From Salinivirgaceae bacterium (GTDB taxonomy: Bacteria; Bacteroidota; Bacteroidia; Bacteroidales; Salinivirgaceae): a stretch of DNA of 38,352 nucleotides. The notes below the pieces were generated by a model, which had not been told where the DNA came from, did not search any database, and saw only the letters and a list, made by a program, of their open reading frames with translations. Both the position numbers and the translations under genes were made by a program. The DNA lies in contig PKTE01000069.1 in the NCBI GenBank assembly GCA_002869335.1, positions 1-38,352 of the forward strand, given 5' to 3'. Below are positions 3,088 through 13,031 of this stretch, in pieces. The number at the start of each line of letters is the position of its first letter. Position 1 is the first letter of the stretch.

Positions 3088-3399
3088 TTATACGCAACTT
3101 GCTGGTTTAGGAATTCCAGCAAACTTTGAAGAAAGCTTAAGTGGTCCGCCTGGGAATAGCTGATAAAGACCTTTAATATCAGTAATGCCAGATTTACCTA
3201 CTTTACGAATAGATAGCGGCTCACCTGCAGCATGTTTCTCGCGTAAATATTCCAATACTTCGTAATGCTTGTCAGTTAGCTCAATGCCATCTTCTTTTGC
3301 AATCTCTGCAGCTACTTCACGACTCCAATCTTCCATGTTGGTTAAATAACCTTCGTCGTTTAACTGTACTGTTTTACCAGCGATTTCTTTTTCTGCCAT
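3088..3399 (-). CDS. TusE/DsrC-family sulfur-relay protein (single-cysteine form)
   Basis: At 103 residues this is the standard size of TusE/DsrC proteins, and it carries the family signatures: a start around LNDEGYLTNMEDWS, LTDKHYEVLEYLREKH in the helix-turn-helix-like core, IRKVGKSGITDIKGLYQLFPGGP, and a C-terminal arm ending GIPKPASCV. The penultimate Cys102 is the conserved sulfur-binding CysA. The second cysteine of true DsrC, eleven residues upstream, is Ser91 here. It should therefore carry a persulfide but not form the DsrC intramolecular disulfide/trisulfide; functionally it is a TusE-like carrier. It lies in the operon with SQR, DUF1641 and DsrE2-like genes rather than with dsrAB or tus genes. 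Confidence 0.9.
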   Translation of the reverse strand: MAEKEIAGKTVQLNDEGYLTNMEDWSREVAAEIAKEDGIELTDKHYEVLEYLREKHAAGEPLSIRKVGKSGITDIKGLYQLFPGGPLKLSSKFAGIPKPASCV

Positions 3400-3492: not shown

Positions 3493-4173
3493 TTACGCTT
3501 TTGGTTGGTTTGCAATGTTTTTTAAGAATGTAACTGCAAAACCAAGTGCTTTTTTCATTTCCGGTTTATTCATTTCACGCATTAATTTCCAAACAGAATA
3601 TTCAGGTACGTTTTCTACCTCCATACTTTGGTATACTTTCACAGCATTGTTTACTGCATCAAGCATTTCCGGCTGTGTGAGGTTTTTCACTGTTTGAAGA
3701 ATTGTTGAGATATTTTCAGCTAATTGTGTCACATCATCTTTCGAGAAATTGGTTACTATATTGTCTACCACATCTCCAAAAGCTGCAAAGAATTCGAAAT
3801 AACCTTTTTGCTCAAAAACATGAAGTTTTTTAGTTGCTTCGATAATTACTTCATTTACAATTGGACCAGCGTCTTTGATAAGGTCATTGGCACTTTCAAA
3901 TAGTGATATAACGTTACCAATGTTTTCAATATTCTTAATGAGCTTTACCACGATAATTTTAAGCGCATCCGGGTCTATTGAAACCTGTTGGTTTTCGAGT
4001 TCTTCAACCGAAGAATCATATATGTCTTTTCCCACAAGGGATAAATCCTTTACAAGGTCTTCAACAGCTTCGGCTTTTAGTCGCTGTTGATTCACATTGT
4101 CCAGAATCAGATCCATTTTGTGGTTCAGTTCATTTATTTGTGTTTGTATGTTTTGGTCTTCCATGGGTGTCAA
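3493..4173 (-). CDS. DUF1641 family protein
   Basis: The 226-residue protein is soluble and almost entirely helical. It begins with a coiled-coil-like segment (EDQNIQTQINELNHKMDLILD), and its second half holds the region recognised as DUF1641: LTQPEMLDAVNNAV, then a conserved end with EYSVWKLMREMNKPEMKKALGFAVTFLK. DUF1641 proteins have no established biochemical function but are repeatedly found next to sulfide:quinone reductase or Hdr-like genes in bacteria and archaea. Here the start codon lies two bases after the SQR stop, so the two are surely co-translated. A scaffold or membrane-recruitment role for the flavoprotein is an inference from this linkage only. Confidence 0.75.
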   Translation of the reverse strand: MTPMEDQNIQTQINELNHKMDLILDNVNQQRLKAEAVEDLVKDLSLVGKDIYDSSVEELENQQVSIDPDALKIIVVKLIKNIENIGNVISLFESANDLIKDAGPIVNEVIIEATKKLHVFEQKGYFEFFAAFGDVVDNIVTNFSKDDVTQLAENISTILQTVKNLTQPEMLDAVNNAVKVYQSMEVENVPEYSVWKLMREMNKPEMKKALGFAVTFLKNIANQPKA

Positions 4174-4175
4174 TT

Positions 4176-5414
4176 TTACAAGTTCACTTTTTTCTTTCCG
4201 GCCATGGTCATATCTGCTTCAATCGGCATCTCTTTTCCGCGTAGCAAAATGTGCCAGTAAATCCAACGGAACATGATTTTACCATAATGATTAATTCGGG
4301 TGTTTTTTAATAATCCGAAAGGGCCAATACCCGGTAATGGAAATGTACCCGGAAGCGGCTCTGTTTCGTAATTGAAATCAATTAACGCACCTTTTCCATG
4401 TCCTGTCTCAATGTAGCAATTGGCGTGACCGTCGAATTTGGCTAGTAGTGGTCTTCCTTCAATGGCACTCATGATATTGTCAAACAAAATTTCTGATGCA
4501 AAGTGAGCTACAGAACCAGCTTTTGAAGTTGGAATATTAGAAGCATCGCCCAGCACAAAAATATTTTCAAATGCGTTTGACTGCAAAGTATGCTTGTCGG
4601 TTGGTATAAAGTTGAGATCATCTCCCAATCCACTGCGCTCAACCATTTCGTCTCCCATGTTTAGAGGTACAATAGTTAGGGTGTCAAATGGCACCTCTTT
4701 TTCATCATAGGATACAAGTACCTTTTTATCATTATCTACACGTTCGATATAAAAGTCGGGTATTACCTCAATGTTTTTTTCTTTCAGCAATTCGCTGAGC
4801 ATTTTTGTAGCTACAGGTTTAGTAAATGCTCCCGGAAGAGGAGTTACTAATTTGATATCTACTTTGTCGCGCATGCCTTTTTTTGCAAAAAATTCTTCGG
4901 CCAGACACACAAATTCAATGGGTGCCACGGGACATTTGAAAGGCAATTCAGTGATGGCCATTACTAGTGTGCCGCCCTCCCAGCTTTTGAAATGACGCTG
5001 TAGAGCCACAGCTCCTTCAACTGTATAAAAGTCGAAAATGTCTTTATACCACAGTTTGTCTTTTAGTCCCGGAGTTTCATCAGGTCTGGTTTGTGTTCCA
5101 GTGGCTACAATTAGAATATCATAGTCTAAAGCTTTCCCATCTTCTAGCAGCACCTGATTTTTTTCACCAACGATCTTATCAATACCTTGGTAAATTACTT
5201 TTACTCCAGCAGGGAAAAAGTCACTTTTTGATTTTATTACGTCCTGTTTATTGTATATGCCAAATGGAATAAATAAAAATCCGGGTTGGTAATAGTGTGT
5301 TTTATGCTTGTCAACGATGGTGATTTCCCACTCGTCGCGGTCTAATGCCTTACGAAGTTTGTTGGCCATCATTGTTCCGGCTGTTCCACCGCCTAGTATT
5401 AATAATTTTTTCAT
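4176..5414 (-). CDS. Sulfide:quinone oxidoreductase-like FAD protein
   Basis: The 412-residue flavoprotein starts with a Rossmann FAD motif (MKKLLILGGGTAGTMMAN) and has ILIVATGTQTRPDETPGL and FVLGDASNIPTSKAGS, the second FAD contact. Cys161 in PFKCPVAPIEF and Cys333 in HANCYIETG match the two redox cysteines of SQR; a third cysteine found in some SQR types is absent. Cys170 is nearby. The C-terminal ~70 residues (PLPGIGPFGLL, IMFRWIYWHILLRG) suit monotopic membrane attachment. It should oxidise sulfide to sulfane sulfur and reduce menaquinone. The start at 5414 is preferred over an in-frame one 92 codons upstream, which would add low-complexity sequence and swallow the regulatory region. Confidence 0.85.
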   Translation of the reverse strand: MKKLLILGGGTAGTMMANKLRKALDRDEWEITIVDKHKTHYYQPGFLFIPFGIYNKQDVIKSKSDFFPAGVKVIYQGIDKIVGEKNQVLLEDGKALDYDILIVATGTQTRPDETPGLKDKLWYKDIFDFYTVEGAVALQRHFKSWEGGTLVMAITELPFKCPVAPIEFVCLAEEFFAKKGMRDKVDIKLVTPLPGAFTKPVATKMLSELLKEKNIEVIPDFYIERVDNDKKVLVSYDEKEVPFDTLTIVPLNMGDEMVERSGLGDDLNFIPTDKHTLQSNAFENIFVLGDASNIPTSKAGSVAHFASEILFDNIMSAIEGRPLLAKFDGHANCYIETGHGKGALIDFNYETEPLPGTFPLPGIGPFGLLKNTRINHYGKIMFRWIYWHILLRGKEMPIEADMTMAGKKKVNL

Positions 5415-5482
5415 AAGATTATATTTTATATTTTTAATGATTCTGGTTTTATCAACTTTAGATATCCAGATATTTGCATATT

Positions 5483-5490
5483 CAAATTTA
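5483..5490 (-). promoter_or_regulatory. Possible -7 box of the SQR operon
   Basis: The minus strand reads TAAATTTG, matching TAnnTTTG, about 69 bases before the SQR start codon. There is no TTG at the expected -33 spacing; the FNR-type palindromes lie a little further upstream, as expected for an activator-dependent promoter. Confidence 0.35.
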
Positions 5491-5523: not shown

Positions 5524-5554
5524 ATGATGATTATCATGGTATGATATTTATCAT
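5524..5554. promoter_or_regulatory. Two FNR-type operator palindromes in the divergent sqr / fnr-like region
   Basis: ATGATGATTATCAT (5524-5537) and ATGATATTTATCAT (5541-5554) are each perfect 5-N4-5 inverted repeats, the second extended to 16 bases. They match the FNR box TTGAT-N4-ATCAA except for the outermost base. Their centres are 17 bases apart. They lie 26 bases before the FNR-like start codon and 110 bases before SQR, so the regulator probably controls both itself and the sulfur operon. Confidence 0.75.
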
Positions 5555-5579: not shown

Positions 5580-6263
5580 ATGGACCCTAATTGTACGTGT
5601 GAGAAATGTGAGTTGAAAAGTCTTTTCTTTCAGAGTGTTAGTGAAGAGGAGTTGTTCAACGTTTGCAATAATAAAAAGGAAAATGAGCATAAAAAAGGAG
5701 ATTTAATTATCGCAGAAGGAAGCGTAATTAAAGACTTTATCTATCTTAAAAGTGGTTTGGTAAAGTTGTATAAAACAACACGAGACCATGAGCAAATATT
5801 AAAATTTGCAGGACCTTTCGATTTTGTGAGCATTCTTAATATTTTTAGTCATAATAAACATCAATATTCGGTGATGGCTTTGGAGGACTCTGTTACATGC
5901 CATGTGGATTTTGCTGAAGTTCGGAATATGGTGTTGGAAAATGGGGTGTTTGCCCATGGCTTACTTCAAAAAATGGGACAGGTTTCTGACAGCATTATAC
6001 AGGAGTCTCTTCAGATTCGGCGACATAATTTGAAAGGTCGTGTAGCCATTGTGTTGCTCTATTTTGCTAATAGGGTATATGAAAAAGATGAGTTTGAACT
6101 TCCTCTCTCACGGAAGGAAATAGCCGAGTATATTGGTAAAACAACTGAAAATGTCATTCGTGCCCTATCAGATTTTAGAAAAAGTAATATCATTAAGATT
6201 TTTGGAAAAGTAATTGAAATTATTGACAAAGAAAGATTGGAAAGGTTGTCAAAATTTGGTTAA
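5580..6263 (+). CDS. Crp/Fnr-family regulator with FNR-like cluster cysteines
   Basis: The 227-residue protein has an N-terminal cyclic-nucleotide-binding-type beta-roll (about residues 20-125), a dimerisation helix, and a Crp helix-turn-helix (LSRKEIAEYIGKTTENVIRALSDF, about 176-199). Glu190 and Arg194 take the places of FNR Glu209 and Arg213. Cys5, Cys7 and Cys10 form a CxCxxC motif at the N-terminus. Cys107, in ALEDSVTCHVDF, aligns with FNR Cys122 (ALETSMVCEIPF), so a [4Fe-4S] O2 or NO sensor is plausible. It is divergent from the SQR operon, has two palindromes just upstream, and is followed 12 bases later by a sensor kinase. That it controls the sulfur operon is inference. Confidence 0.85.
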   Translation: MDPNCTCEKCELKSLFFQSVSEEELFNVCNNKKENEHKKGDLIIAEGSVIKDFIYLKSGLVKLYKTTRDHEQILKFAGPFDFVSILNIFSHNKHQYSVMALEDSVTCHVDFAEVRNMVLENGVFAHGLLQKMGQVSDSIIQESLQIRRHNLKGRVAIVLLYFANRVYEKDEFELPLSRKEIAEYIGKTTENVIRALSDFRKSNIIKIFGKVIEIIDKERLERLSKFG

Positions 6264-11588: not shown

Positions 11589-13031
11589 ATGAGAAATCGA
11601 AAATCAATATTTTTTAAGTTTCAGGGTCTGGCAATAGTTTTAGTTGCAATAATTTTAACAACATCTTGCAACAACGAGCCTAAAAATGTTGTTTCTGCCC
11701 CCAAGGCAATTAACCCGTTGGAAAACCGAATGATTCCTCATCTTGACCACACTGCGTATTATCCTGATTCTATCAGTAGTCCACAGGAACTGACAAAGTC
11801 ATGTTTAGAGTGTCATCCGAATAGTGCTAAGGAGGTAATGAAGACTCCACACTGGACGTTTTTAAGCGGTGATGTCGAAAGAAATGGAGAGCATATTCGT
11901 ATCGGTAAGAAAAATCAAATTAATAATTTCTGCATCAGTATAGTGGGTAACTGGGCCAGATGTACTAAATGCCATGCTGGATATGGTTGGACTGATGAAA
12001 ATTTTGATTTTACAGCTGAAGAAAATGTTGATTGCCTTGCTTGTCATGACGGATCGGGTACATACGTTAAAGATACAAGCGGTGTCCCAATGAAAGGTGT
12101 TAATTTACAAGTGGCAGCACAAAGCGTGAGCAGACCGAAAAATGATAATTGCGGTGCATGCCATTTCAATGGAGGAGGAGGCATGGGCGTTAAGCATGGC
12201 GACCTTGATGAGTCTTTACTAAATCCAAATGAAGAACTGGATGTACATATAGGAAAACTTAATTTCCAGTGCGTTGATTGTCACACTACTGAGCATCACC
12301 TTGTATCAGGTAAGGTTAATAATACTTATACTGAGAGAACGACATCAAAAAGGTTTGATTGCGAAAAATGCCATACTGATAAACCCCATACAGATGGTCG
12401 TCTCAATATACATACAGAAAGAATAGAATGTCAAACATGTCATATTCCCGAATATGCACGTAAACTCCCTACAAAAATGACCTGGGATTGGGGAAAAGCT
12501 GGTGATAGCACTAGAGAAGAGAATGTTCATGAATATTTAAAGATAAAGGGAGAGTTTACCTACGAAAAAAATGTTATTCCCACGTATGCCTGGTTTAACC
12601 ATAAAATGGACAGGTATATACTCGGTGATCCTGTGGACCCTGAAACTGAGAATTTAATTAATAAACCCCTTGGCTCCAGAGATGATAAAAAATCTAAAAT
12701 ACATCCTTTTAAAGTTCATATTTCAAAGCAGCCTTATGATGAGGTAAATAAATATTTGATTCCACCATTAACAAGCGGTAAAGGAGGTTTTTGGAATGAA
12801 TTTGATTGGCCTTCTGCTATTAGAAAAGGTGCTGAATTCAACAATCTTCCTTTTAGTGGCGAATGCGATTTTATAGAAACAAAAATGTATTGGCCTATAA
12901 ATCACATGGTAACAACCAAAGATAATGCATTAAAATGTACAGATTGTCATAGTGAGAATAGCCGTATGGATTGGAAGGCATTGGGATATGGGGAAGATCC
13001 AATAAAACATAGTAATAAACAATTGAACTAA
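11589..13031 (+). CDS. Octaheme c-type cytochrome, tetrathionate reductase family lipoprotein
   Basis: The 480-residue protein has eight CXXCH heme-binding motifs, starting at residues 72, 125, 149, 188, 228, 258, 281 and 450; the last stands well apart, as in the Shewanella octaheme tetrathionate reductase (OTR) family. A lipoprotein-type signal (ILTTSC, Cys27) suggests membrane anchoring on the periplasmic or outer side. Family members reduce tetrathionate, and in vitro nitrite or hydroxylamine; the physiological substrate is open. The next gene starts six bases downstream, and the operon goes on with sulfur-transport proteins and a quinol-oxidising cytochrome, which favours a sulfur oxyanion. 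Assignment of the catalytic lysine ligand was not attempted. Confidence 0.85.
   Translation: MRNRKSIFFKFQGLAIVLVAIILTTSCNNEPKNVVSAPKAINPLENRMIPHLDHTAYYPDSISSPQELTKSCLECHPNSAKEVMKTPHWTFLSGDVERNGEHIRIGKKNQINNFCISIVGNWARCTKCHAGYGWTDENFDFTAEENVDCLACHDGSGTYVKDTSGVPMKGVNLQVAAQSVSRPKNDNCGACHFNGGGGMGVKHGDLDESLLNPNEELDVHIGKLNFQCVDCHTTEHHLVSGKVNNTYTERTTSKRFDCEKCHTDKPHTDGRLNIHTERIECQTCHIPEYARKLPTKMTWDWGKAGDSTREENVHEYLKIKGEFTYEKNVIPTYAWFNHKMDRYILGDPVDPETENLINKPLGSRDDKKSKIHPFKVHISKQPYDEVNKYLIPPLTSGKGGFWNEFDWPSAIRKGAEFNNLPFSGECDFIETKMYWPINHMVTTKDNALKCTDCHSENSRMDWKALGYGEDPIKHSNKQLN

Follow-up and report, generated by a model that had tools for sequence, protein, structure and literature searches.

Tandem palindromes between a sulfide:quinone reductase operon and a divergent Crp/Fnr-family gene of Bacteroidales: a probable operator for the activation of sulfide oxidation

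Two perfect ATGAT-N4-ATCAT palindromes in the genome of a Salinivirgaceae bacterium quite probably form a tandem operator of the SQR-DUF1641-DsrC-DsrE2 promoter, to be bound by the product of the neighbouring Crp/Fnr-family gene, most likely a dedicated activator of the operon. Judged by comparison with related genomes, the palindromes are real and functional, and the case for them is stronger than was stated when they were first noticed in the DNA letters alone (hereafter the sequence-only reading). We propose that the regulator would bind the two palindromes as a pair of dimers centred at about −52.5 and −69.5, that the two sites would act cooperatively, and that the bound regulator would activate a −7-box promoter that has no −33 element. 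The signal would probably be redox or sulfur state, perceived through N-terminal cysteines.

The window, that is, the whole stretch of DNA that was analysed, comprises 38,352 nucleotides (contig PKTE01000069.1 of assembly GCA_002869335.1), and its relevant features are listed in Table 1. The sequence-only reading had placed two perfect sites, with centres 17 bp apart, between the genes for sulfide:quinone reductase (SQR) and the regulator, and their coordinates are confirmed; the intergenic gap that holds them, between the divergent SQR and Crp/Fnr genes, measures 165 bp. There are no other perfect matches in the window. The 4.3-Mb genome contains 17 perfect single sites, these two included, with 8 in a reversed control, while the stricter form ATGATAWWTATCAT has one copy genome-wide, namely the distal palindrome at this locus. 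When the 165-bp gap was dinucleotide-shuffled 5000 times, one perfect site arose in 37 of the shuffled sequences and the tandem pair in none.

Table 1. Features of the SQR/regulator locus (positions within the window)
Feature	Position	Strand	Remarks
DsrE2-like sulfur carrier	2472-2972	minus	
DsrC/TusE-like sulfur carrier	3088-3399	minus	
DUF1641 protein, operon partner	3493-4173	minus	
Sulfide:quinone reductase (SQR), type III	4176-5414	minus	NCBIfam NF049943, 646 bits
TAAATTTG, predicted sigma-A −7 box of SQR operon	5483-5490	minus	predicted start near 5478
SQR-proximal palindrome ATGATGATTATCAT	5524-5537	.	centre 48 bp from end of SQR −7 box (about −52.5)
SQR-distal palindrome ATGATATTTATCAT	5541-5554	.	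17 bp from proximal one (about −69.5)
Crp/Fnr-family regulator, 227 aa	5580-6263	plus	Pfam domains, AlphaFold model
Codons of Cys5, Cys7, Cys10 (C-x-C-x2-C)	5592-5609	plus	Cys7 and Cys10 align with FNR Cys20 and Cys23
Cys29 codon	5664-5666	plus	occurs in orthologs only along with Cys5
Cys107 codon	5898-5900	plus	aligns with FNR Cys122
Recognition-helix codons 189-194 (T-E-N-V-I-R)	6144-6161	plus	Ile193 codon at 6156-6158

The operon order SQR, DUF1641, DsrC, DsrE2 is repeated wherever the whole operon was fetched (L031-L040), including L031, the cultured relative Maribellus sediminis. The SQR of the window scores far above the cut-off of the NCBIfam entry 'SQR_III_seleno', yet its gene has no in-frame TGA, so the selenoprotein name misfits this copy. 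The DsrC-like protein ends in ...KFAGIPKPASCV, with a single C-terminal Cys, and resembles the sulfur-relay protein TusE more than two-Cys DsrC. On the same strand, the sulfur operon is followed by genes for a hemerythrin protein of the Fe-S repair (RIC/YtfE-like) type and for a LuxR-type regulator (1120-2402), and a member of the tetrathionate-reductase family, an octaheme c-type cytochrome, is encoded nearby (11589-13031).

Regulator orthologs, which share roughly 36-58% identity, were collected in the same order and their flanking DNA was fetched; the divergent neighbour is SQR in almost all of these loci. Conservation was then counted over 70 divergent SQR/regulator loci of the order, which come from related genomes and are non-independent samples, and among which L034/L101 and L035/L104 are probably one organism each, obtained via two collections, so that the independent number is slightly below 70. 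A site matching at 9 or more of its 10 positions is present at 66 of the 70 loci (3.4 expected from shuffles), a perfect site at 43 (0.18 expected) and the exact 17-bp tandem pair at 41 (0.04 expected). Loss of the palindromes from relatives that retain the divergent pair had been named beforehand as grounds for giving up the sequence-only reading; they are kept instead, near-perfect in nearly all of these loci and paired in more than half. The tandem spacing is 16 bp in a subset of loci; in many loci the pair includes one weak site, and a clean proximal site is absent from a few. Elsewhere in the aligned gap, nothing except the −7 box is conserved to a comparable degree.

The tandem arrangement is largely confined to this locus. 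In a genome-wide scan of 32 genomes, all nine tandem matches with 0-1 mismatch lie here; at two mismatches, four lie here and four elsewhere. A wider regulon was considered and rejected, as perfect single sites elsewhere in the relatives are few, genome-specific and mostly without the −7 spacing. When 395 genomes from across the phylum were searched for the regulator, none beyond the order had an ortholog at E <= 1e-42. The closest relatives sampled, two genomes of the window organism's own genus (G605 and G749), have neither the regulator nor SQR; hence, either the island is a recent gain or loss, or this contig was wrongly binned into the assembly.

The regulator exceeds the Pfam cut-offs for PF00027, PF13545 and PF00325 and belongs to the Crp/Fnr superfamily, with a cNMP-binding-like domain and a Crp-type helix-turn-helix. 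Its AlphaFold model (pLDDT 88.7) finds A. fischeri FNR among the PDB structures as its best match, with holo-FNR at the top. Nevertheless, strict FNR membership fails, since FNR Cys29 has no equivalent: three of the four FNR cysteines (Cys20, Cys23, Cys29 and Cys122) are aligned. The protein also scores 78.8 bits against the FNR model NF008365, below its cut-off of 228; Ile193 replaces Ser212 of the recognition triad Glu209, Ser212 and Arg213; and the operator, here and in the Ile193 orthologs, is ATGAT-N4-ATCAT and not TTGAT-N4-ATCAA.

Cys7, Cys10 and Cys107 are nearly invariant; no other cysteines are conserved as well, and this holds for orthologs without Cys5 and Cys29 too. At the position of FNR Cys29, the window protein has Phe, and all orthologs have Phe or another non-Cys residue. 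Cys5 and Cys29 occur together in 51 of 81 orthologs and are both absent from 29, with a single split case, which suggests that they are a coupled pair. Given these patterns, an FNR-like cluster with another fourth ligand is possible, as is a thiol pair. The O2- or NO-dependent control envisaged in the sequence-only reading is thus unproven: three of the four FNR cluster cysteines have equivalents, while no ortholog has Cys at the third N-terminal position.

The signal could be read in another way without affecting the activator model. The regulator might not be an Fe-S protein but instead sense, through thiols, the persulfide or polysulfide that SQR produces; we regard this as a plausible minority view. 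The both-or-neither occurrence of Cys5 and Cys29 is as expected of a reacting pair, and a sulfide enzyme as target would suit such a sensor, as would the missing counterpart of FNR Cys29. However, the equivalents of FNR Cys20, Cys23 and Cys122 are conserved best, even where Cys5 and Cys29 are absent, and holo-FNR is the top structural match, although the model has low confidence at residues 1-20 and is uninformative on cluster ligands. On balance, an FNR-like Fe-S cluster appears somewhat more likely than reactive thiols. A bolder proposal, which we put forward as a long shot, is that a Crp/Fnr-fold activator senses sulfane sulfur directly via Cys5/Cys29, perhaps in combination with a cluster, and turns sulfide oxidation on from the tandem sites at −52.5/−69.5. 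If true, the reading of sulfane sulfur would be a new sensing principle in the FNR fold, combined with a Bacteroidota-specific activator position.

Activation, as opposed to repression, is suggested by the layout of the SQR promoter. The Bacteroidota −7 box occupies −12 to −5 (PMC9723704), which puts the site centres at about −52.5 and −69.5 relative to starts that are themselves predicted. In 39 of the 70 loci, a TAnnTTTG box on the SQR strand has its end 47-49 bp away from the proximal-site centre, against at most 0.9 loci expected from motif density; many of the remaining loci carry a −7 box with one mismatch at the equivalent place. With a looser site score the spacing is found in 47 loci. 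As for the −33 element, TTG is not enriched at that position across the loci. A fixed phase upstream of the −7 box, together with the missing −33 element, is the layout of an activator-dependent promoter, and suggests that SQR would be activated from the upstream sites. For E. coli CRP, −52.5 is an unusual position, so activation from it would be a peculiarity of Bacteroidota. A fixed promoter position was also sought on the regulator side, but the sites lie anywhere between 0 and about 400 bp from the regulator start, and there is no conserved box.

Alternatively, the regulator might be a repressor: its dimers on the palindromes would keep SQR, and perhaps the regulator gene as well, switched off until release by sulfide, polysulfide, O2 or NO. 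SqrR and BigR, well-studied regulators of SQR, are repressors. Repression of the regulator gene would also suit several loci where the distal site overlaps the regulator start codon or a −7-like box, or is no more than about 20 bp away from one of them. Yet a repressor needs no fixed upstream phase, whereas the constant distance between the sites and the SQR −7 box, like the lack of a −33 element, fits activation, and we therefore consider repression unlikely.

That the preferred activator is the neighbouring protein is indicated by its recognition helix. In the alignment, T189-E-N-V-I193-R of the window protein stands against V208-E-T-I-S212-R of FNR, with Glu190, Ile193 and Arg194 opposite Glu209, Ser212 and Arg213, the major FNR-box contacts of FNR (PMC4505428); as first noticed, the Glu and Arg are kept and Ile takes the Ser212 position. 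Across the regulators compared, x-ENVIR helices go with an outer A at 177 of 222 outer positions, while outer T accompanies V-ENVVR (12/14) and M-ENAVR (6/6). Paralogs of the R-E[SN]xxR type have an outer G in 16 of 16 cases, which repeats the published correlation of R180 with G3 (reported along with that of E181 with A6) in Crp/Fnr regulators (PMC1274295) and serves as a positive control. Such paralogs (L140, L145, L150, L156, L173, L176, L177 and L178) have GTGAT/GTGAC-type palindromes upstream of their own starts; operators of other families can thus be read from data of this kind.

The one clean switch, a single evolutionary event, is found in a Val193 clade of 16 genomes (loci L209-L224), which is nested among Ile193 relatives in the tree. 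Sites are present at 15 of its 16 loci, 14 of them TTGAT-type and one mixed (ATGAT/ATCAA), and the N4 letters and site positions are variable. Diverged Val-type regulators beside SQR also have TTGAT-N4-ATCAA, and the T-ENVVR regulator of L040 has a mixed site. An independent-pairs test of residue 193 versus the outer base yielded 4-5 contrasts, each of them concordant or neutral, a number that cannot reach significance. A one-residue code is rejected, as K-ES[AT]-I-R paralogs have Ile at this position yet mostly T in the DNA. Hence, the idea that Ile193 goes with the altered outer base is supported by the Val193 switch and, less strongly, by the paralog cases; we favour a co-variation of residue 193 with the outer base in an N191-V192 context. 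This bears on whether another Crp/Fnr protein of the cell, and not the neighbour, reads the sites. Bacteroidales genomes have several Crp/Fnr paralogs each, some with TTGAT or GTGAT boxes of their own; but the site letters track residue 193 of the neighbour, and SQR without this neighbour is siteless though most such genomes hold paralogs, which makes a different reader very unlikely.

Loci in which the gene pair is broken up indicate which gene the sites serve. In G642, the regulator gene is convergent, lies downstream of the SQR operon and has no site, while SQR retains both sites, with its −7 box at 48 and 65 bp. In G107, where SQR and the regulator are on different contigs, SQR has a site at 49 bp and the regulator has none. 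Regulator copies without SQR are mostly siteless (L028, L105, L124, L130, L133, L142 and L143), and two have imperfect sites (L023 and L026). At L129, the tandem site and the regulator stand opposite a divergent gene other than SQR, which putatively encodes an exported protein, and the −7 box is at 49 bp; SQR was not found in this genome (G659). Conversely, five genomes with SQR but no adjacent regulator (L083, L084, L087, L089 and L090) have no site. In three further loci (L086, L088 and L225), a diverged Crp/Fnr protein with an ENAVR helix occupies the regulator's place beside SQR; two of them show a single TTGAT-N4-ATCAA with its centre 70 bp from the −7 box, and the third a one-mismatch version by eye. 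SQR is rare outside genomes with the regulator, with one occurrence in a set of 80. A different 80 genomes were selected largely for the absence of a strong ortholog; SQR occurs in 11, and on closer inspection several do contain the regulator.

Taken together, these comparisons show that the sites are linked to SQR and not to the regulator gene, and that they need a regulator to be present. At the level of sequence, then, the proposed control of sulfide oxidation is supported by site conservation, by the two separated gene pairs and by the siteless SQR genes without a regulator. The companion claim of autoregulation fares poorly: every divergent locus does have sites upstream of the regulator too, but the site stays with SQR after gene separation, the distance to the regulator start varies widely, and SQR-less regulator copies mostly lack sites, the exception (L129) having another divergent gene at the same −7 spacing, so that sites meant mainly for the regulator's own gene, with SQR control incidental, are the least probable of the explanations considered.

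Dedicated control of SQR or other sulfide-oxidation genes, in several cases with cysteine chemistry, is known from SqrR/BigR/YgaV, CstR and FisR, which have ArsR, CsoR and sigma-54-activator folds; none is of the Crp/Fnr type. The ArsR-type winged helix of SqrR/BigR does not appear in the present regulator, whose Pfam matches are to Crp/Fnr domains only. A literature search returned no paper on a Crp/Fnr regulator of SQR in Bacteroidota, which does not disprove that one exists. The regulator described here would be the probable controller of sulfide oxidation for a broad set of environmental Bacteroidales, in which the search turned up no earlier regulator of this process, and its target a well-marked activator-type promoter in a phylum with little-known activator positions.

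Compared with FNR of E. coli and Aliivibrio fischeri, the regulator shares the Crp/Fnr fold, the helix Glu and Arg, equivalents of Cys20, Cys23 and Cys122, and the half-site core TGAT. It is about 24% identical to FNR, lacks FNR Cys29, has its own Cys5 and Cys29 instead and has Ile for Ser212; its box differs from the FNR box in the outer base A, and its regulon is apparently one operon, with sites at about −52.5 and −69.5. HcpR, DNR and NnrR (PMC1274295) are likewise local Crp/Fnr regulators, often divergent from their target, with co-variation of residues and DNA, but their targets are in nitrogen-oxide metabolism and their boxes are TTGAC, GTAAC and TTGCG. HcpR2, with Pro, Ser or Gln at CRP position 181 and the box GTAAC-N4-GTTAC, is a poor fit, as Glu190 is invariant in the orthologs and the box is ATGAT. 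Finally, the choice between A and T that accompanies residue 193 (FNR 212) is absent from the two correlations in PMC1274295, and Ile193/A, Val193/T and Arg189/G offer a natural variant series for the Crp/Fnr recognition code.
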